DNA of 37,833 nt, taken from positions 1-37,833 of the forward strand of contig QJYK01000343.1 of the NCBI GenBank assembly GCA_003248075.1, read 5' to 3'. Of this stretch, positions 28,352-37,833 are shown in pieces. The position numbers were made by a program, and so were the translations under genes. The DNA comes from Gemmatimonadota bacterium (lineage in GTDB: Bacteria > Gemmatimonadota > Gemmatimonadetes > Longimicrobiales > Gaopeijiaceae). How positions within the stretch are numbered: the stretch's first letter is position 1; every line of letters begins with the position of its first letter. Under the pieces are notes generated by a model. That model saw only the letters and a program-made list of their open reading frames with translations. It was not told where the DNA came from and did no database searches.

Positions 28352-29287
28352 ATGCGTAGCGCGACGTGGCGGGCGACGGAAGCACACCCCTTCCTCATGC
28401 TCATCCTCCTTTCGGCGACGTGCGCCACGCGGGCTGCAGCCCAGGAGCCGTTCCGCTCCCGCTGTGGCACGGGTGTCCACGTGGAGGAGCGGAGCGGGTG
28501 GATCTGGTTGCCCCAAGGGAGGATCTTTTGCCCCCTCGTGGCCGACCCGAAGGCGGAGCGCTCCTTCGTGAGCTATCTGCGCGGTGACTTCGCGACCATC
28601 GCGGACCCGGCACCGAACCCCCGGACCAACATCGCCGCGATCGGTCTGAGCTCCAGCCTCGCGATCTTCCGGGTCGCGGGCGCCCGCTCCGGCGACGGCG
28701 TGCAGCTCGACCTCGAGGGATCGGTCTTCAGCCAGTTCAACCTGGATGCGGCCTCCTTCGACCTCATCAACGCCGACTACCTCGTGGCCCTCCCGCTCAC
28801 GCTCCGCAGCGCCGGCTTCACGACCCGCCTGCGGGTCTACCACCAGAGCTCGCACCTCGGCGACGAGTTCCTGCTCAGTCGACAGCCCGAGCGCGTGAAC
28901 CTGTCCTTCGAATCCCTCGAGGTGATCCTCTCCCAGGAGCTGGGGCTCCTTCGCACGTATGCGGGCGGGGAGAGGTTCTTCCGGCGAGAGCCGGAGCAGC
29001 TGGCCGACCTCCTCGGTCACGCTGGCGCGGAGCTTCGGCCGGTCGTATTCGCCGGCGGGCGCCTCCTGGCCGCCGTCGACGTCAAGGCGGTTCGGGGCGA
29101 GGACGAGAGGTGGGACCCCGCGTGGAACGCGCGCGCTGCCCTGGAGATCGCGCGGGTCCCCACCCCCGGACATCCGCCGCAGGTCATCACGCTGTTCATC
29201 GACTACTACGACGGCGTGGCGCCCTACGGCCAGTTCTACCGGGAGGACATCCGCTACGTGGGAGTGGGCTTCGAGCTGGCTCGCTAG
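28352..29287 (+). CDS. DUF1207 family secreted protein
   Basis: The protein has 311 residues from ATG at 28352 with GGAGG 5 nt upstream. A signal peptide is present (FLMLILLSATCATRAAAQ). The mature protein shows the DUF1207 signature order: PLVADPKAERSFVSYL, then LDLEGSVFSQFNLDAASFDLINADY, then RLRVYHQSSHLGDEFLLSRQ, then NLSFESLEVILSQELGLLRTY and GAELRP. It ends with amphipathic strands (VITLFIDYYDGVAPYGQFY, then VGVGFELAR). This family has no known function and is probably an outer-membrane beta-barrel. It stands alone, divergent from the nucleoside operon with 270 bp between starts in which I see no other gene, and 135 nt upstream of the S9-type hydrolase. Confidence 0.88.
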   Translation: MRSATWRATEAHPFLMLILLSATCATRAAAQEPFRSRCGTGVHVEERSGWIWLPQGRIFCPLVADPKAERSFVSYLRGDFATIADPAPNPRTNIAAIGLSSSLAIFRVAGARSGDGVQLDLEGSVFSQFNLDAASFDLINADYLVALPLTLRSAGFTTRLRVYHQSSHLGDEFLLSRQPERVNLSFESLEVILSQELGLLRTYAGGERFFRREPEQLADLLGHAGAELRPVVFAGGRLLAAVDVKAVRGEDERWDPAWNARAALEIARVPTPGHPPQVITLFIDYYDGVAPYGQFYREDIRYVGVGFELAR

Positions 29288-29353: not shown

Positions 29354-29382
29354 TTGACAGGAGCCCCGGCCGCCGGGATCCT
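29354..29382 (+). promoter_or_regulatory. Candidate sigma70-type promoter for the S9-type hydrolase
   Basis: A perfect -35 TTGACA (29354-29359) is followed after 17 bp by GATCCT (29377-29382), a poor -10 with three matches. It sits 40 bases before the ATG at 29423. The -35 and spacing are good; the -10 is weak. Confidence 0.3.
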
Positions 29383-29422
29383 GACTCCGTCAGCCGTGGG
29401 TCACACGAACAGGGAGCCGGCC

Positions 29423-30577
29423 ATGATCCGCACCCTATCCGAAGTACGCGCGCTACGAGGCAACCGTGGGGTGCTCGCAATCGTGTTCCTCACCTCGGTT
29501 CTCGCGCTCGCCCCCGGAGCGTCGGCGCAGAACACCAATGGGCGCCGCGTCGTGCCCATGGATACCGCCCGTGCCCGAGAGCTCTATGTGAGCGACCGGT
29601 GGGAGGATCATCCGTACCGGGACTACGCCGCGGACATGGAGGGCAAAGCGCGCACGGACAGCATCTACGCGGCCGTCACGCAGGGCGTGGTGGACTACCG
29701 CAAGATCACGTATCGGAGCCGGGTCGGAGGCATGGAGATTCCCGCCTATCTCTTCCAGCCGATCGAGAAGCGCGGACCTCGCGGTCACGCGGCGATGGTC
29801 TGGGTGCACGGGGGCGTCCACGGAAACTGGGGAGCCAGCATGTGGCCGTTCGTGCGCGAGGCGGTGGAGCGCGGATACGTCATCATCGCGCCCGAGTACC
29901 GTGGCAGCACCGGGTACGGCGAGGAGCACCATCGAGCCATCGATTACGGCGGCTACGAGGTCGACGACGTGATCACCGCCTACGACTGGATCACGGCGAA
30001 CCTGCCCCACGTCGATCCACAACGAGTCGGGATCATGGGATGGAGCCACGGTGGCTACATCACGATCATGTCGCTCACACGGGACGAGCACCCGTTCCAG
30101 GCCGGGGCCGCTCTGGTGCCGGTCACGAATCTCCTCTTCCGGCTATCGTTCAAAGGACCCGGATATCAGCGGAGCTTCGCCACCCAGGAGCGGATCGGGG
30201 GCCTTCCATTCGAGGAGCGCGAGATCTACAAGGATCGGTCTCCGTACTACCAGGTCGACAAGCTCCGCACGCCCCTCATGGTGCACATCGCGACGAACGA
30301 CCAGGACGTGAACTTCGAGGAGGCGTCCATGCTCGTCTACAAGCTACGCGCCACCAAGCCCGACCTGGCGGAAACCAAGATCTACGTCGACCCCGCCCCA
30401 TGGGGACGAAGCATCGGACATGCGTTCAGCCGCCGCGTGGACCCGGAGACCCTGGAACGTGTCGACTCACCCGCGCAGCGAGACTCGTGGAACCGGACCT
30501 GGGCCTTCCTGGAAGAGCACCTCCGGCCCTATGACGATCCGAACGTGCCCAAGGATCTGAGGACGGGCGTGAACTAG
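29423..30577 (+). CDS. Secreted S9/prolyl-oligopeptidase-type alpha/beta hydrolase
   Basis: The protein has 384 residues from ATG at 29423 with GGAG upstream. The N-terminal signal is GVLAIVFLTSVLALAPGASAQ. A short linker precedes the hydrolase core: AAMVWVHGGVHGNWG (oxyanion strand), IIAPEYRGSTGYGEEHH, and the nucleophile elbow GIMGWSHGGYITIM with S208. The acid is D293 or D295 (HIATNDQDVNFEEA) and the base is H333 (WGRSIGHAFSRR). The triad order and RGSTGYG are typical of S9 peptidases, but there is no beta-propeller domain in front, so access to substrate would differ from prolyl oligopeptidase or acylaminoacyl peptidase. Likely a periplasmic esterase or peptidase. Convergent with ppk1, 5 nt apart. 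Confidence 0.88.
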   Translation: MIRTLSEVRALRGNRGVLAIVFLTSVLALAPGASAQNTNGRRVVPMDTARARELYVSDRWEDHPYRDYAADMEGKARTDSIYAAVTQGVVDYRKITYRSRVGGMEIPAYLFQPIEKRGPRGHAAMVWVHGGVHGNWGASMWPFVREAVERGYVIIAPEYRGSTGYGEEHHRAIDYGGYEVDDVITAYDWITANLPHVDPQRVGIMGWSHGGYITIMSLTRDEHPFQAGAALVPVTNLLFRLSFKGPGYQRSFATQERIGGLPFEEREIYKDRSPYYQVDKLRTPLMVHIATNDQDVNFEEASMLVYKLRATKPDLAETKIYVDPAPWGRSIGHAFSRRVDPETLERVDSPAQRDSWNRTWAFLEEHLRPYDDPNVPKDLRTGVN

Positions 30578-30582
30578 CCCGC

Positions 30583-32676
30583 CTACGGGGCGCCGACGGA
30601 GCCCGGTTCGGGCTCCACGAGGCCCGCGAGGTAGGCGCGAAAAGCCTCCTGGGAGCGCACCGCGGGGCCATCGCTACGCACATACGGGCTCGTCCCCGCA
30701 CCGTCGATCCAGCGCGCCTTCCGGTTGTCGGCCAGCTGGAGCTCCAGTGAGGTGCGAAGCTGCGCCCGTACGTCGGAGTCGTAAACGGGCAGGGCGACCT
30801 CCACCCGGTGCGACAGGTTGCGGGTCATCCAGTCGGCCGAGGAAAGGTACATCCGCTCCTCGCCGTCCCTCAGGAAGAGGTAGATGCGTGCGTGCTCCAG
30901 GTAGCGGTCGAGAATGCTCCGCGCGCGGATGGTCTCGCTCTGCCCGGGCACGCCGGGCACGAGCCGGCAGATCCCCCGCACCAGGATCTCGACGGGCACG
31001 CCGGATGCCGACGCCTCGTAGAGACGCTTGATGATCTTCCGGTCTTCGAGAGCGTTCATCTTCAGCGTGATGCCCGATGGCTCTCCCTCCGATGCCCGCC
31101 GCGCCTCGTGCTCGATGAGTCGGTTGAAGCGCTTGCGGAGCGTGAAAGGCGCGACGAGCAGGTGTTCGGTGCGAGGCTCGTCCACCTCGCCCGCCAGGAA
31201 GCGAAAGACCTCCTCGACGTCGAGGGTGACGCGCTCGTCACACGTGAACACCCCGTGGTCGGCGTAGACTCGCGCGGTCTTCTCGTTGAAGTTGCCCGTG
31301 CCCACGTAGGCGTAGCGTTTCCTGGCGTCGCCCTCGCGACGGACGATGAGGGCGATCTTGGCGTGGACCTTGAGTCCCTTCATGGAGAAGAGGGTGCGCA
31401 CGCCCGCGGTCCCGAGGCGGTCCGACCAGACGAGATTCGACTCCTCGTCGAAGCGCGCCTGCACCTCCATGAAGACGGTGACGCGCTTTCCGTTCCCGGC
31501 CGCACGGATGAGTGCGTTGAGCACGTCGGAGTCCCTGGCCACCCGATAGACGGTCATCCACACCTCCTCCACATCCGGATCGTCGGCCGCCTCCTCCAGC
31601 AGGCGGACGAAGTGGCCGAAGGACTGGTAGGGTGTGTGGATCACCTGATCCCGCTCGCGCATGGCCGCCATCACCGAGTCCACCCGGTCGAGCACGGGAT
31701 GGGGTAGCGGAGACCACTCCGGATTGGACAGCTCGTCCCTCCCGAAGCGCGGAAAGCCCATGTAGTCGCTCAGGTTGTGGTAGCGGCCCCCGAGAACGAC
31801 GTCCTCATCCTCGAGCCCGAGTCGATGATGGAGGTGGTGGATGACGGCGTACGGCGTGCTCTTGTCGTATAGGAAGCGGCTCGGGAGCCCGGTCTCACGC
31901 TTCTTCAGGCTCTTGCGTATCGCATCGACAAGATCGCCCTCGAACTCGTCGTCGACGTACAGCTCCGCGTCCCTGGTGAGCTTGACGGCATACGAGCGGC
32001 CGATCTCGTGCTCCGGGAACAGCGAGTCGAGGTTGTACCGGATCACGTCGTCGAGGAACATCACCTCGCGGCCCGCACCACGGCTCGGCAGCGTCACGAA
32101 CCGCCCCAGCTCAGGAGCAGGCACCCGAACCAGGGCGTAGACCGGCGTCCACGAATCGAGAGCCGCGCTTGCCCGATCCCACAGCTCCACGACGAGATAG
32201 ATCGCGGCATTGCGCAGGAAGGGTGACCTGCGTTCGTCGTCGAGGAGCTCGGGTGTGACCAGCTCCCGAACGCGCTCCTCGAAGTAGCGCCGTACCCACG
32301 CGTCGTGATCGCGATGCAGGCTCGCCTCGTCGACCCTCCTGACGCCCGCGAGCGACAATGAATCGAAGATGCCCGCCACGATGGCGCCGTACCGCTCCTG
32401 CTGATCGAGCACGATCCGATGGATGTCGTGGAGGAGTCGATGCGGGTCGATCCCGAGCTTCGCCTTGGTGCCCTTACCGAGTCGCAGGAGCGTCCGGAGC
32501 GAGGCTACGCGCACGCGGAAGTACTCGTCCAGGTTCGACGAGAAGATCCCGCAGAAGAATAGGCGCTCGAAGAGCGGGACGGTTGCGTCCTCCGCCTCCT
32601 GGAGGACCCGCCCGCCGAACGCGAGCCAGCTCGTCTCACGGTCCAGGTACGTGAATTCGGCGCGGTGTTCCGGCAT
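30583..32676 (-). CDS. ppk1: Polyphosphate kinase 1
   Basis: The protein has 697 residues from ATG at 32676; the length is normal for PPK1. The N-terminal domain opens with YLDRETSWLAFGGRVLQEA and RLFFCGIFSSNLDEYFRVRV. The head domain is followed by two catalytic domains: KVHAKIALIVRR (coded near 31360) contains the histidine that is phosphorylated in E. coli PPK, followed by YVGTGNFNEKTARVYAD, and LDRYLEHARIYLFL holds the second essential histidine. NLSHRVEVALPV closes the C-terminal domain. It makes polyphosphate from ATP, reversibly, in the cytoplasm or at the membrane face. No exopolyphosphatase gene is adjacent. Divergent from the kinase-like/BamA-barrel gene with 110 bp between them. 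Confidence 0.97.
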   Translation of the reverse strand: MPEHRAEFTYLDRETSWLAFGGRVLQEAEDATVPLFERLFFCGIFSSNLDEYFRVRVASLRTLLRLGKGTKAKLGIDPHRLLHDIHRIVLDQQERYGAIVAGIFDSLSLAGVRRVDEASLHRDHDAWVRRYFEERVRELVTPELLDDERRSPFLRNAAIYLVVELWDRASAALDSWTPVYALVRVPAPELGRFVTLPSRGAGREVMFLDDVIRYNLDSLFPEHEIGRSYAVKLTRDAELYVDDEFEGDLVDAIRKSLKKRETGLPSRFLYDKSTPYAVIHHLHHRLGLEDEDVVLGGRYHNLSDYMGFPRFGRDELSNPEWSPLPHPVLDRVDSVMAAMRERDQVIHTPYQSFGHFVRLLEEAADDPDVEEVWMTVYRVARDSDVLNALIRAAGNGKRVTVFMEVQARFDEESNLVWSDRLGTAGVRTLFSMKGLKVHAKIALIVRREGDARKRYAYVGTGNFNEKTARVYADHGVFTCDERVTLDVEEVFRFLAGEVDEPRTEHLLVAPFTLRKRFNRLIEHEARRASEGEPSGITLKMNALEDRKIIKRLYEASASGVPVEILVRGICRLVPGVPGQSETIRARSILDRYLEHARIYLFLRDGEERMYLSSADWMTRNLSHRVEVALPVYDSDVRAQLRTSLELQLADNRKARWIDGAGTSPYVRSDGPAVRSQEAFRAYLAGLVEPEPGSVGAP

Positions 32677-32750
32677 GGATGACCCGGGTTGAGCCCAGAG
32701 GGGCGGACAAGATAGGCCGTGGCTCGGCGACCGGCACGCGACCGTACCGG

Positions 32751-32780
32751 TTGGGTTTCGGAGAGGCCCACACATATACT
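32751..32780 (+). promoter_or_regulatory. Candidate sigma70 promoter giving a leaderless mRNA
   Basis: TTGGGT (32751-32756) and TATACT (32775-32780) are separated by 18 bp. TATACT is a near-consensus -10 in an AT-rich island. Transcription would start about 7 nt downstream, at or within a base of the ATG at 32787, so the transcript may have no 5' leader; accordingly no ribosome binding site is seen before this ATG. Confidence 0.55.
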
Positions 32781-32786
32781 TTCGCC

Positions 32787-35342
32787 ATGCGTTTCCCATC
32801 GGCGATCACCCTGCCCGTCCTCGCGACCTCGCTTTGCACGCTCGGGCTGCTCCCGACCGGAGTCGGAGCGAGGCAGTCCCAGGGCACGGAGGTCACAGCT
32901 GCCGGCGAGCGGTATCGGGCAGGGCTCTTCCACCGGTGGATCCTCGGCCGGCACTACCGTCACCTCTGGACGGCCCCGATCCAGGTGCGGGTCCTCGACC
33001 TCGGAGGCTTCGCGGGCGGGCTCGAGGCCCTTCGGGAGGGTGGTGGGCGTCAGACCCGCTCGTTGCGGTTCCTGGGTGCCGACGGCCGCGAGTATGCATT
33101 CCGCTCCGTCGACAAGGATCCCTCACCCGTTCTCGATTCGATCCTGCGGGAGACGATCGTGGACGACCTGGTGCAGGACGGCATCAGCGCGGCCCATCCG
33201 TACGGCGCGCTCGTTGCCCCTCCCCTGCTCGAGGCCGCCGGCGTCCTCCACGTGAGTCCGCAGCTCAGGATCATGCCGGACGACCCCGCGCTGGGCCAGT
33301 TCCGAGACGAGTTCGCCGGCATGCTCGGAATGATCGAGGAGCGCCCCAACGAGAGCGACGACGAGCGCATCTCGTTCGGGGGCGCGCGCAGGGTCATCGC
33401 GAGCGAGACGCTCACCGATCGGCTGGACCGGGGGCCGGACGACCGGGTCGACTCGCGGGCGTTTCTCACCGCCCGCCTGATGGACGTCTTCCTCGGCGAT
33501 TGGGACCGACACCGCGGCCAGTGGCGGTGGGCCACGTACGACGAAGACGAGCCGCGACGGTGGCTGCCGGTGCCCACCGACCGCGATCAGGCCTTTTCCA
33601 AGTTCGACGGACTGGCCACGAGGATCGTGTCGCTGTACATGCCGCAGTTCGTCCGTTTCGACGACTCGTATCCCGACCTCACCCGACTCCATTGGAACGG
33701 GAGGGCGCTCGACCGCTGGTTCCTCTCGGAGCTCGAACGGCCGGTGTGGGACTCCATCGGGGGCTTCCTGGTCGACCGCCTGGATGACCGGGTCATCGAC
33801 GACGCGGTGCGCAGGCTCCCTCCCGAGATCCAGGCCCTGAACGCGGAAGATCTGGCCCGGAGTCTGAAGGCGCGCCGGGACGCGCTTCCACGTGCGGTGG
33901 ACGAGTTCTATCGAATTCTCGCCGAAAAGGTGGACGTCCGTCTCACCAACGCCGACGAGGTCGTAACCGTGGACCGGAGCGCGCCCGGCGTCGTCCGGGT
34001 CGCGGCGGCAGTGCCCGACGAGCCGCGACCCTTCTTCGACCGTCGCTTTCTCGCCGACGAGACGAAGGAGATCCGCATTTACCTGTCGGGCGGCGACGAC
34101 CGAGTCATCGTGCGCGGGGGCGACGGGGGTCTCGTCCGGGTCATCGGGGGCGAAGGCGACGACGTCTTCGAGTTCGAGGGCTCGGGACGTGCCGTCCGAC
34201 TCTACGACTCGCAGGGAGACAACCGCACCGAGGGTCCGGACCCTCCCCCCATCAACACGCGCTACTTCGAGGAGTGGGTCTGGACCGAGGACAACCGGGA
34301 CCAGCCCAGGGACTGGGGAAGACGGACGCAGCCCATCTTCTGGACCTCCTATTCCTCGGACCTCGGCCTCTTCCTGGGTGGCGGAGCACGGCTGTATGGC
34401 TACGGCTTCCGCCAACGACCCTTCGCGAGCGCCTTCGACTTCCGCGCCGGCTTCGCCCCGGTGCTGGGAAAGGGCAGACTGGAGATCGATGGTCGCATGC
34501 TCCGCGAGAACTCCCCCACGTACTGGACGATCGGGGCCCGCGTTTCTCGACTGGACGTGATCCACTACTACGGCGCGGGCAACGACACCGAGCCGCAGGG
34601 GGAGGAGGACTTCCATCGCATCGATCAGACCGCCGCGTCCGTTCGGCTCGGGCTCGGCGTCGCGCCTTCGGCAGGCCTCGATTTGTCTGCCGGTCTCATC
34701 GTCGAGAGGCTCAGCACCCGACAGGGAGCAGGGCAATTCTACGGATCGCTCGGACCCGTCTACGGCGGAGGAGCGTTCATCCAGTCCGGCGCGTCCGTCC
34801 GGCTCGAGTGGGATCCACTGATCGAGTCCGGGGCCACGGCCAGCCGGGTCCGTGTCTCCCTGGAGGGTACGCTCTTCCCCGCGATCTTCGACGTCGAGCG
34901 GACCGTAGGGCGGGGGTCCGGTGAGGTCTCGGTCCTCCTGGCTCCGTCCCCCTCTCCCAGGATCTCCCTGGCACTGCGGGCGACGGGGGTGGAAGTATGG
35001 GGGCGGGCCCCGTGGCACCAGTTCGCGTTCCTCGGCGGACCCGGGTCCCTCAGGGGCTGGGACGAGCAGCGCTTCGCCGGAGACCGAGCCCTCACGGGCA
35101 GCGCGGAGGTGCGGCTTCGACTCTGGCGTCCGCGTGTCGTCGTGCCGGTCAGCTCCGGGCTGTTCGGCTTCGGAGATGCGGGGCGAGTCTACATCGATGA
35201 AGAGTCTCCAGGCGGGTGGCACACCAGTGCCGGCGGTGGGCTGTGGCTTCGGCCGGTCCGACAACCCTATATCTTCCGAGCCGGGGTCGGGTTCAGCGAG
35301 GAAGCCACCAAGCTGTTCGTGATGCTGAGCCTCACCTACTGA
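32787..35342 (+). CDS. Exported protein with kinase-like signature fused to a BamA/TamA-type beta-barrel
   Basis: The protein has 851 residues from ATG at 32787, with signal LPVLATSLCTLGLLPTGVGA. The N-terminal ~500 residues contain YAFRSVDKDPS (K110), QDGISAAHPYGALVAPPLLEAAGV, RIMPDDPALG, then DVFLGDWDRHRGQWRWA (D238-H242) and PVPTDRDQAFSKF (D265-F270). The last two resemble the catalytic (DRHxxN-like) and metal-binding loops of HipA/FAM20C-type kinases. This whole region is what I recall from long Bacteroidota BamA/TamA-family proteins. From about 540 the sequence is an Omp85-like barrel with LRGW near 755 (GPGSLRGWDEQRFAG), ending in KLFVMLSLTY. Whether the front domain binds nucleotide is unproven. 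It is followed 36 nt later by a phosphoesterase gene in the same direction. Confidence 0.85.
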   Translation: MRFPSAITLPVLATSLCTLGLLPTGVGARQSQGTEVTAAGERYRAGLFHRWILGRHYRHLWTAPIQVRVLDLGGFAGGLEALREGGGRQTRSLRFLGADGREYAFRSVDKDPSPVLDSILRETIVDDLVQDGISAAHPYGALVAPPLLEAAGVLHVSPQLRIMPDDPALGQFRDEFAGMLGMIEERPNESDDERISFGGARRVIASETLTDRLDRGPDDRVDSRAFLTARLMDVFLGDWDRHRGQWRWATYDEDEPRRWLPVPTDRDQAFSKFDGLATRIVSLYMPQFVRFDDSYPDLTRLHWNGRALDRWFLSELERPVWDSIGGFLVDRLDDRVIDDAVRRLPPEIQALNAEDLARSLKARRDALPRAVDEFYRILAEKVDVRLTNADEVVTVDRSAPGVVRVAAAVPDEPRPFFDRRFLADETKEIRIYLSGGDDRVIVRGGDGGLVRVIGGEGDDVFEFEGSGRAVRLYDSQGDNRTEGPDPPPINTRYFEEWVWTEDNRDQPRDWGRRTQPIFWTSYSSDLGLFLGGGARLYGYGFRQRPFASAFDFRAGFAPVLGKGRLEIDGRMLRENSPTYWTIGARVSRLDVIHYYGAGNDTEPQGEEDFHRIDQTAASVRLGLGVAPSAGLDLSAGLIVERLSTRQGAGQFYGSLGPVYGGGAFIQSGASVRLEWDPLIESGATASRVRVSLEGTLFPAIFDVERTVGRGSGEVSVLLAPSPSPRISLALRATGVEVWGRAPWHQFAFLGGPGSLRGWDEQRFAGDRALTGSAEVRLRLWRPRVVVPVSSGLFGFGDAGRVYIDEESPGGWHTSAGGGLWLRPVRQPYIFRAGVGFSEEATKLFVMLSLTY

Positions 35343-35378
35343 AGCGTCCCGGGTCTCGCCTTTCCCCGCGCCGATCGC

Positions 35379-36545
35379 ATGCGTCAAGCCGACCGCGTCT
35401 CGAAAGCGCTTCTCACGTCGGTCCTGGCAGCGGGATGCACCGCAGCACAGGTCCGCTACCAGCCGATGCAGTCCGGCGCACCCAGCGCCGAGGGGGCCCT
35501 TGGCGTGCTCTATCTCGTCGGCGATGCCGGGGAGGTCAACCAGGGGCGAGACGATGTGCTCGCGCATTTGTCGGCGGACATCGAGGCGGTCGCGCGGGCC
35601 GGGGCCGGCCCACCCGTTGTCGTCGCCTTCCTGGGGGACAATGTCTACGAGCGGGGCGCAACGGCGGAGCCTACGCCCGCCGAGCTGGAGAAGCTGGGCG
35701 GACAGGTTCGTGCTCTGGGACGCGCCCCGAACGTGCGCGGCGTCTTCATGCCGGGAAACCACGACTGGGCGAAGGGCGCTCCAGACGAGGAGGGGCGAGC
35801 GGCCCTGGAGCGGCAACGAGCTTGGCTGGATCGACTTTCGGACGGTCGCGACGTCCACCTCGTGCCCGGGGACGGCTGCCCTGGGCCTGTGACGGAAGAG
35901 ATGGGTCGCGCGGCGCAGCTCGTCTTCGTCGATACGGAATGGCTTCTTCGCGGGTCCGAAGACCGGTGCGGAACATCGGCGGGTTTCTACGACCGCTTGA
36001 CCGACACGCTGCGCGTGAGCGCGCGCCGTGACGTGCCGATCGTCGTGCTGGCCCACCATCCCCTGGCGAGCGGGGGGCCTCACGGTGGACATGTGGCCCC
36101 ATTCCAGAGGGGCCCGCTCCTCTACTTCCTCGCCACGAAGAGCGGCGCCATCCGGCAGGATCTCACGTCCACGGCCTATGCGGCCATGATCGGGGGGATT
36201 TCGGGAGCCATCACGCAGAGCGGTGCTCGGCCACTGATCCAGGCCGCCGGTCACGACCATACGCTTCAGGTGATCCGGCTCGCGCGCGCCGGAGAGCCCG
36301 CCTATCAGTTGGTGAGCGGCGCCGCTTCCAGAGTCTCCCGATCCCGGGCGCTCACCGGAACACGCTATGCAGCGGAAGGCTACGGGTACATGCGGGTCGA
36401 CTTCCTCGGCCCTGGCGCGCGCCTTGTCGTCTTTGCGCGCGAAGTCGATGAGGGCCCGGTCCGCGCCGTGTTCACCTGCACGCTGTCCGCGGCGGCACCC
36501 GAGGCGGAGTGCCCGCAGGCACACTCCATGGAGGCGCCCCGGTGA
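35379..36545 (+). CDS. Calcineurin-like metallophosphoesterase, predicted lipoprotein
   Basis: The protein has 388 residues from ATG at 35379. The N-terminus (SKALLTSVLAAGC) suggests lipidation at C20, although the residue at -3 is Ala. The two-metal phosphoesterase motifs are complete: LVGDAG (D49), FLGDNVY (D87, N88), MPGNHDW (N127, H128), LAHHPL (H226) and AGHDHT (H292, H294). The expected activity is phosphomonoester or diester hydrolysis in the periplasm. In Bacteroidota a related phosphoesterase domain is, as I recall, fused ahead of the kinase-like/BamA-barrel region; here it is a separate downstream gene, so the two products probably act together. A GTG of the next gene overlaps its stop. 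Confidence 0.93.
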   Translation: MRQADRVSKALLTSVLAAGCTAAQVRYQPMQSGAPSAEGALGVLYLVGDAGEVNQGRDDVLAHLSADIEAVARAGAGPPVVVAFLGDNVYERGATAEPTPAELEKLGGQVRALGRAPNVRGVFMPGNHDWAKGAPDEEGRAALERQRAWLDRLSDGRDVHLVPGDGCPGPVTEEMGRAAQLVFVDTEWLLRGSEDRCGTSAGFYDRLTDTLRVSARRDVPIVVLAHHPLASGGPHGGHVAPFQRGPLLYFLATKSGAIRQDLTSTAYAAMIGGISGAITQSGARPLIQAAGHDHTLQVIRLARAGEPAYQLVSGAASRVSRSRALTGTRYAAEGYGYMRVDFLGPGARLVVFAREVDEGPVRAVFTCTLSAAAPEAECPQAHSMEAPR

Positions 36546-37036
36546 GTCACCCACGACGGCCGCTCCTGGTCCTGATCTGCCTTCTCGCGCCGGCGACCGC
36601 CCGGGCTCAACTGTCCGAACCGTGTGGGACTCGCTGCGGCGTGGTACTCGGGGCGACCGCATTCACGGCCGCCACCGGCACCGTGGTGGCCTACGCCCGC
36701 ATCACCGGCGGGATCTCGACGGCGAAGGAGGGCCTGGGCATCTGGGGTGCGGGCTTCCTGACGGTGGTCGGGGGGGGCATCGCGCTGCAGGGAGACGGCG
36801 GGCGGCAGCGTCGAGCCGTATACGCATCCGGCCTCGGAGCCGTGGCCGGCTCACTGGTCGGCCTGGGCATCGAGTCGGTCCGGGCGGGGAGCGACGACGC
36901 GAGCAGGTGGGCGGGCGCGTTGGTGGGCGCCACCGTCGGCACGCTGGTCGGCGGCCTCTACGGTGCACTGTCGTACGGTGGCGCCGAGATCTACTCCGAT
37001 CCCGTCCCGCTGTTCGCGTTCACCCTGCCCTTCTGA
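36542..37036 (+). CDS. Small exported glycine-rich protein coupled to the phosphoesterase
   Basis: The protein has 164 residues from GTG at 36542, which overlaps the phosphoesterase stop by 4 nt (GTGA). A signal peptide is clear (RRPLLVLICLLAPATARAQ). The mature part has one possible disulfide (EPCGTRCG) and several Gly/Ala-rich hydrophobic segments (GVVLGATAFTAATGTVVAY, IWGAGFLTVVGGGIAL, AGALVGATVGTLVGGLYGAL), which resemble glycine-zipper helices. It ends in PVPLFAFTLPF. It may insert in a membrane or assemble as an oligomer. No family is recognised. The tight coupling implies a role with the two preceding proteins. Confidence 0.75.
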   Translation: MSHPRRPLLVLICLLAPATARAQLSEPCGTRCGVVLGATAFTAATGTVVAYARITGGISTAKEGLGIWGAGFLTVVGGGIALQGDGGRQRRAVYASGLGAVAGSLVGLGIESVRAGSDDASRWAGALVGATVGTLVGGLYGALSYGGAEIYSDPVPLFAFTLPF

Positions 37037-37050
37037 GCCACTTCCAGCCC

Positions 37051-37833
37051 TCAGGGGAGCACCGTCAGGCCTCCCACGAGCACCGCGGTCGAGCCACCCG
37101 GATTGGTGACCCGCACGTCCCAGAGCAGGTTCCCCTTCGGTCCGCCGGACTTGGTCGTGAATGTCGCCGTGATGGTGTTCGCGTCGACCCGCACGACGTC
37201 CGACACCGTCGGTGCCGGGCCCTGCCCCGGGTCGAAGCTCACCGTCGCGCCCGGGAGGAAGTTCGTACCCGTGATCGTCACGGATAGCGGCACACCCCTA
37301 GCCATCGCATTAGGGGACAGGCCGGTCAGAGTGAGTGGAGCGATCACCGGACCCACCGGCGCGCTCGACACCGACGAGCCGGTCGGCGTCCCTGTCTGAG
37401 CCACCGGCGTCACCTCGAACGTGATCATGGCGCCCTGGTCCGCGCCCACCAGCGTGTACGTCGTCGCCGTCGCGCCCAGGATCTCCGTCGGCCCGCTCCC
37501 GACGTCCCGCAGCCACCGGTACGTCGACGCGCCCTGCAGATCACCCTCGTTGTCCGTATACGCGTAGGTGCCCGTCAGCACTGCGCCAACCTGCAGCGTG
37601 CCGCCGACCTGGACGTTGCTCGCCACCGGCGCCGTGTTCGGTGCCGCCTGCACCGGACCCACCGGCGCGCTCGACACCGGCGAGCCGGTCGGCGTCCCGG
37701 TCTGAGCCACCGGCGTCACCTCGAACGTGATCATGGCGCCCTGGTCCGCGCCCACCAGCGTGTACGTCGTCGCCGTCGCGCCCAGGATCTCCGTCGGCCC
37801 GCTCCCGACGTCCCGCAGCCACCGGTACGTCGA
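37051..37833 (-). CDS. IPT/TIG and Ig-like tandem-repeat surface protein (partial, N-terminus off the window)
   Basis: The minus-strand frame is open from the window edge to a stop at 37051, giving 260 codons of the C-terminus. The last ~90 residues form an IPT/TIG-like domain (LTGLSPNAMARGVPLSVTITG, then TNFLPGATVSFDPG, and VRVTNPGGSTAVLVGGLTV). Before it lie repeat units of 102 residues containing GTYAYTDNEGDLQGASTYRW, TTYTLVGADQGAMITFEVTP and PTGSPVSSAPVGPV, a beta-sandwich pattern like bacterial Ig-like/cadherin-like repeats. The composition (Thr, Gly, Val, Asp; no Cys) fits a long secreted adhesin or stalk. The number of repeats, the signal and the anchor lie outside. It is convergent with the phosphoesterase operon. 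Confidence 0.85.
   Translation of the reverse strand, partial: STYRWLRDVGSGPTEILGATATTYTLVGADQGAMITFEVTPVAQTGTPTGSPVSSAPVGPVQAAPNTAPVASNVQVGGTLQVGAVLTGTYAYTDNEGDLQGASTYRWLRDVGSGPTEILGATATTYTLVGADQGAMITFEVTPVAQTGTPTGSSVSSAPVGPVIAPLTLTGLSPNAMARGVPLSVTITGTNFLPGATVSFDPGQGPAPTVSDVVRVDANTITATFTTKSGGPKGNLLWDVRVTNPGGSTAVLVGGLTVLP
37345..37833 (-). repeat. 306-bp near-identical coding tandem repeat
   Basis: Bases 37345-37527 match 37651-37833 with two mismatches in 183 positions, an offset of exactly 306 bp (102 codons). The second copy is cut by the window edge, so the array probably continues. Identity at synonymous sites points to recent duplication or gene conversion. Confidence 0.9.

Follow-up and report, generated by a model that had tools for sequence, protein, structure and literature searches.

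Genes at the locus

The window, by which we mean the whole stretch of 37,833 nucleotides analysed here, carries a gene for polyphosphate kinase 1 (PPK1) and, divergently transcribed from it, a gene for an 851-residue barrel protein, which is followed after 36 bases (barrel stop codon to phosphoesterase ATG) by a gene for a 388-residue predicted lipoprotein. An earlier note on this DNA had described the adjoining barrel and phosphoesterase lipoprotein frames together with a small third frame, and all three were recovered where it had placed them; PPK1, which lies 110 bp upstream of the barrel gene, was absent from its account. The genes are arranged as follows:

30583 to 32676, minus strand: PPK1 (TIGR03705, 721.9 bits), with its likely start at ATG 32676
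32677 to 32786: intergenic region of 110 bp between the divergent PPK1 and barrel genes
32787 to 35342, plus strand: predicted kinase-like domain and Omp85 barrel protein, 851 aa, with signal peptide (open reading frame, family alignment, AlphaFold)
35379 to 36545, plus strand: predicted purple-acid-phosphatase-type (TRAP/ACP5-like) lipoprotein, 388 aa (PF00149, family profile, purple acid phosphatase motifs)
36542 to 37036, plus strand: small exported glycine-zipper-like protein, 164 aa from GTG

The small exported protein, which had been reported as coupled by GTGA, is indeed present, with the overlap at 36542-36545, but it is not conserved with the barrel/phosphatase pair; as a third component it was rejected, no relative having been found at any examined locus. 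Two further genes, for a DUF1207 protein (28352-29287) and an S9-family peptidase (29354-30577), precede PPK1, and in the first set of relatives neither was found close to a barrel homolog. On the minus strand, a reading frame with repeated AIR9-type Ig domains (37051-37833) runs past the window end.

An atypical-kinase-like domain ahead of an Omp85-type barrel

Modelling of the full 851-residue protein with AlphaFold gave a pLDDT of 86.6 and 16 C-terminal strands. Its parts, all on the plus strand, are predicted to be:

32892 to 33926: atypical-kinase-like domain, residues 36-380 (AlphaFold pLDDT 93.6, pTM 0.92)
33114 to 33116: codon of Lys110, candidate ATP-site lysine (99% conserved in a 121-domain alignment)
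33495 to 33512: GDWDRH, candidate catalytic loop with D238, D240 and R241 (97-99% in the 121 domains)
33579 to 33596: DRDQAF, candidate metal-binding (DFG-like) motif with D265 and D267 (98% in the 121 domains)
33927 to 34232: short all-beta linker with GGDD-like repeats, residues 381-482 (model secondary structure)
34320 to 35333: 16-strand Omp85-type barrel, residues 512-849 (AlphaFold model, Foldseek)

Searched with Foldseek, the barrel matched SAM50, TamA and BamA at E ~1e-9. In searches with family models, the window barrel matched NCBIfam NF047779 partially (4e-16) and the window protein matched PF01103 at E 0.0067, each under the respective cut-off, while three relatives (L118, L122 and L128) exceed that of PF01103. 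POTRA domains were not predicted anywhere in the 851-residue model, which has the kinase-like domain and the all-beta linker instead. The data thus support, at the level of the model, an Omp85 barrel in which an atypical-kinase fold replaces the POTRA domains; Omp85 subfamilies devoid of POTRA domains count as accepted members in the main text of a survey of the superfamily (PMC4104836).

The N-terminal domain matched atypical kinases in a Foldseek search of the PDB, led by CtkA (1.1e-5, probability 1.00) and followed by CotH (1.0e-4), HipA (1.4e-4), PI4KIIalpha (4.5e-4) and Fam20 (2.7e-3), at TM-scores of ~0.4 and about 10-16% identity, which indicate a remote relation. CtkA also ranked first in an independent sequence-profile search with the domain, with an E of 0.013, which is weak. 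Profile comparisons were made to see whether the kinase domain is homologous to CotH; they were not significant, and this relation was rejected (no Pfam match to the CotH family PF08757; hhalign against CotH, E 0.49), leaving the fold comparison as the one support for a likeness to CotH. Sequence searches of the PDB with the window barrel and the window phosphatase, each alone, returned nothing useful.

With CtkA, CotH, HipA, PI4KII and Fam20 the domain shares the overall fold, as judged by Foldseek, and the placement of the K/D/D motifs, whereas here the kinase-like domain is predicted to be exported and barrel-anchored. By analogy with these proteins, K110, D238/D240 and D265/D267 may serve as the conserved lysine, the catalytic aspartate and the metal-binding aspartate, respectively, and GDWDRH is invariant in a 58-row alignment. 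The model and the alignments thus support an atypical-kinase fold in which all the candidate catalytic residues are retained. The kinase-like domain also occurs as a protein of ~350-590 aa lacking both barrel and phosphatase (L092, L102, L115, L120, L144, L145, L233 and L312).

A predicted purple acid phosphatase

PF00149 is a phosphoesterase family and not a metalloprotease family. The 388-residue protein matches it at a borderline level in Pfam, and its translation reads as that of a lipoprotein:

35436 to 35438, plus strand: codon of Cys20 in the lipobox VLAAGC (read from the translation)

The profile of its family matches human purple acid phosphatase/TRAP at 8e-15, and all five motifs of that enzyme class (DXG, GDXXY, GNHD, VXXH and GHXH) are conserved at ~90% or more across 63 homologs. 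These data support assignment of the lipoprotein, from its sequence, to the purple-acid (TRAP) type as a predicted phosphatase. It would share all five metal-binding motifs with TRAP (ACP5) and differ from it in being a bacterial lipoprotein or, in relatives, the N-terminal domain of an outer-membrane protein.

Fused chains in Bacteroidota and a conserved gene pair in Gemmatimonadota

The earlier note had proposed that the two proteins form a Rosetta-stone pair, pointing to long Bacteroidota proteins with the phosphoesterase first and the GDWDRH/barrel part after it. A scan of GTDB genomes for the pattern GDWDRHxxQW, written in AT-rich codons, returned at least 80 loci from Bacteroidota, Chlorobi and Ignavibacteria. 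Among the 80 matches listed, most chains were ~1170-1250 aa long with ~600 aa ahead of the motif, and the window phosphatase matched the pre-kinase part at 57 of these listed loci (best E ~1e-31), many of the others being incomplete. Pfam placed PF00149 at the N-terminus of two fused chains (L101 and L138) and, in a third chain, found Omp85 at the C-terminus, and the fused Bacteroidota proteins open with a similar lipobox of the CATYKAQY type.

As the pattern-derived set is biased by codon usage, we turned to an unbiased Bacteroidota sample of 118 genomes; this sample and one of 160 Gemmatimonadota genomes carry the quantitative claims, while counts from the pattern search and from the first set of relatives are descriptive. 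The kinase domain was found in 43 of the 118 Bacteroidota genomes. Out of 51 such domains, 30 are fused with phosphatase and barrel in chains of ~1200–1400 aa that run in the order phosphatase–kinase–barrel, as the earlier note had it, 16 are joined to a barrel only and 5 to neither; each of the two window proteins matches its counterpart region in these single chains. At one locus (L286) the phosphatase, kinase and barrel parts are three consecutive genes.

Within the Gemmatimonadota sample, 48 of 160 genomes have the kinase domain. The barrel family is thus absent from ~70% of the sample, which marks it as accessory. The phosphatase subfamily occurs in 31 of these 48, almost always in single copy, and in 24 of those 31 it is the neighbour of a barrel gene, so that the pair is conserved in related genomes. 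Together with the fused chains, this conservation upholds the Rosetta-stone proposal. Gene order was found to vary: at the examined loci, first relatives included, profile searches placed the phosphatase upstream on the same strand in 17 cases, downstream in 9 and on the opposite strand in 4. The inverted order seen in the window, with the phosphatase downstream, is thus real but represents a recurring minority arrangement. In the nearest sequenced relative (G021, barrel 65-67% identical) the two genes lie on different contigs. Mirror-tree analysis gave a correlation of 0.59 in Gemmatimonadota, a value not corrected for species phylogeny.

One part of the earlier wording could not be kept. Calling the window genes a 'split version' implies a direction of change, and the kinase-domain tree, which is unrooted and has the fused forms almost wholly on its Bacteroidota side, gives none.

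Linkage to polyphosphate synthesis and DUF4956

The divergent PPK1 gene of the window has counterparts elsewhere in the phylum. PPK1 lies within 5 kb of the barrel gene in 18 of 46 Gemmatimonadota genomes, in several orientations and spacings, and DUF4956 does so in 29 of the 41 genomes that have both. DUF4956 is present in 41 of 48 genomes with the barrel and in 43 of 112 without it (Fisher p = 2e-8, uncorrected for relatedness). Binomial probabilities, which presuppose that genes are placed at random and that genomes are independent, are rough and do not carry the main argument. Many of the PPK1 proteins beside barrel genes carry an N-terminal CYTH domain, confirmed with Pfam as a CYTH-PPK1 fusion; no conserved ExExK motif was found in this CYTH domain. 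Complete operons run in the order DUF4956, phosphatase, kinase-barrel, CYTH-PPK1 at one locus (L241) and DUF4956, CYTH-PPK1, kinase-barrel, phosphatase at another (L234). The window's own genome encodes DUF4956 followed by CYTH-PPK1, the latter cut by the contig end, on a separate contig from the pair (G000:C165; L223:3679-7228). Membership of the pair in a module linked to polyphosphate and DUF4956 is well supported.

The link is weak in Bacteroidota, where PPK1 lies within 5 kb of the barrel gene in 3 of 40 genomes and at 11-14 kb in nine. An operon spanning the latter distance in Bacteroidales was considered and rejected, given that ScpA, an SRP54-type GTPase and a CHAT/TPR protein intervene; because these intervening genes, seen at one locus, are unrelated and of housekeeping type, the nine cases look like general synteny.

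Loci with DUF4956 and no barrel gene were also inspected. They comprised 20 from Gemmatimonadota genomes where searches had turned up no member of the barrel family, with the exception of one genome (G307) that has a barrel elsewhere. A secreted protein of ~350 aa with CotH-like motifs neighbours DUF4956 at 11 of the 20 and an AlkP-type phosphodiesterase at 9, and two loci (L324 and L340) combine DUF4956, the secreted protein and CYTH-PPK1. The ~350-aa family had no Pfam match and gave 0.046 in a profile comparison with CotH; going by its motifs, it may be a kinase. VTC adjoining DUF4956, which is the canonical arrangement, was found in 3 of the 160 Gemmatimonadota genomes. These patterns suggest that different families may occupy the kinase and phosphatase positions of a single module.

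Relation to described systems

A survey from 2014 already listed the fused form as the 'Metallo' subfamily of Omp85 proteins, or 'Omp85 metalloproteases', on the basis of PF00149 (Heinz & Lithgow 2014, PMC4104836). By domain content, as given in the main text of that survey, an Omp85 barrel with N-terminal PF00149 is equivalent to the fused Bacteroidota form, and fused relatives L101 and L138 conform to it, whereas the window has the two parts as separate genes. The survey labels PF00149 a metalloprotease; the PF00149 protein here is, as predicted above, of purple-acid type. A kinase-like domain, a split pair and a polyphosphate neighbourhood are not reported in its main text, and a search of the literature returned no described function for the fused protein.

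A second point of comparison is the group of CotH, polyphosphate polymerase and DUF4956 genes reported in Gram-positives in 2020 (PMC7112168). Both that group and the loci described here would combine DUF4956, a polyphosphate-synthesis enzyme and an exported atypical kinase. In our case, however, the predicted kinase sits on an outer-membrane barrel and is paired with a purple acid phosphatase, and the polymerase is PPK1, often as CYTH-PPK1, rather than VTC. In the open-access literature, no paper came to light in which the kinase domain is identified or the fused family is connected with this gene group.

A proposed envelope phosphotransfer module and its alternatives

These results suggest an envelope phosphate-transfer system that has been missed by current annotation. 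We give an even chance to the reading that the pair forms the outer-membrane part of a phosphotransfer module in the envelope, centred on polyphosphate synthesis. Given how Omp85 proteins and lipoproteins are known to be oriented, the kinase domain and the phosphatase would both lie at the outer membrane on its periplasmic side. Polyphosphate, or some other phosphoryl donor, would be made and exported by the DUF4956 protein of the inner membrane together with CYTH-PPK1; with this donor the kinase domain would phosphorylate an envelope acceptor, and the phosphatase would reverse or trim this phosphorylation; the kinase-barrel would fill the role that the kinase has in the Gram-positive CotH/polyphosphate-polymerase/DUF4956 gene groups. 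From the neighbourhood alone, we infer that polyphosphate or its product may be the donor and the phosphatase the counter-enzyme. A more specific version, in which exported polyphosphate itself is the phosphoryl donor of the outer-membrane kinase in an ATP-independent periplasmic phosphorylation cycle with the purple acid phosphatase as eraser, strikes us as doubtful.

If the phosphotransfer reading is true, the published label 'Omp85 metalloprotease' would be corrected, and a kinase fold would be assigned to a widespread unannotated domain of Bacteroidota and Gemmatimonadota and tied to polyphosphate synthesis. It would also provide a testable proposal for how phosphoryl donors are supplied to an extracytoplasmic kinase where ATP is thought to be unavailable.

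The strongest rival remains a phosphate-scavenging cluster, in which the phosphatase would free envelope phosphate, the barrel would act as an uptake or assembly pore and PPK1 would store the product; common phosphate regulation would account for the grouping of the genes, and the kinase-like domain would do no more than bind. A phosphatase and PPK1 are what a phosphate-starvation cluster would be expected to contain, PPK1 is found in various orientations and at various spacings around the barrel, and AlkP-type phosphodiesterases adjoin DUF4956 in other genomes. Conservation of the candidate kinase residues at the level found across the 121 domains would, however, seldom be expected of a binding module that has degenerated, the link to DUF4956 is stronger than that to PPK1, and kinase-only genes exist. 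We regard scavenging as possible, on the lower side of probability.

Self-secretion, with the barrel taking the N-terminal kinase, and in the fusion also the phosphatase, to the cell surface, appears unlikely. In PlpD, a POTRA domain lies between the lipase passenger and the barrel, whereas none is predicted in the window protein, and the Gemmatimonadota phosphatase, being a separate lipoprotein, would require an export route of its own. In favour of self-secretion, the window protein has its enzyme-like domain ahead of an Omp85 barrel, as does PlpD (type Vd, patatin-Omp85) in the main text of PMC4104836, and the fused chains open with a lipobox in a phylum, Bacteroidota, where surface lipoproteins are frequent.

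Least probable of all is an outer-membrane assembly factor related to BamA/TamA, whose client folding the kinase and phosphatase would regulate with polyphosphate as chaperone or stress signal only: the barrel is closest to SAM50/TamA/BamA and assembly is the default role for unknown Omp85 subfamilies in the main text of the 2014 survey (PMC4104836), but POTRA domains are not predicted, the family is accessory, being missing from ~70% of the sampled Gemmatimonadota, and the neighbours are phosphate-metabolism genes.

A further gene was seen repeatedly beside the kinase-barrel gene in both phyla. It encodes a lipoprotein-like family of ~300 aa (C6) with a weak phytase-like Pfam match (1e-3), and was found at L042, L050 and L054 and, in Bacteroidota, for example at L151 and L292.
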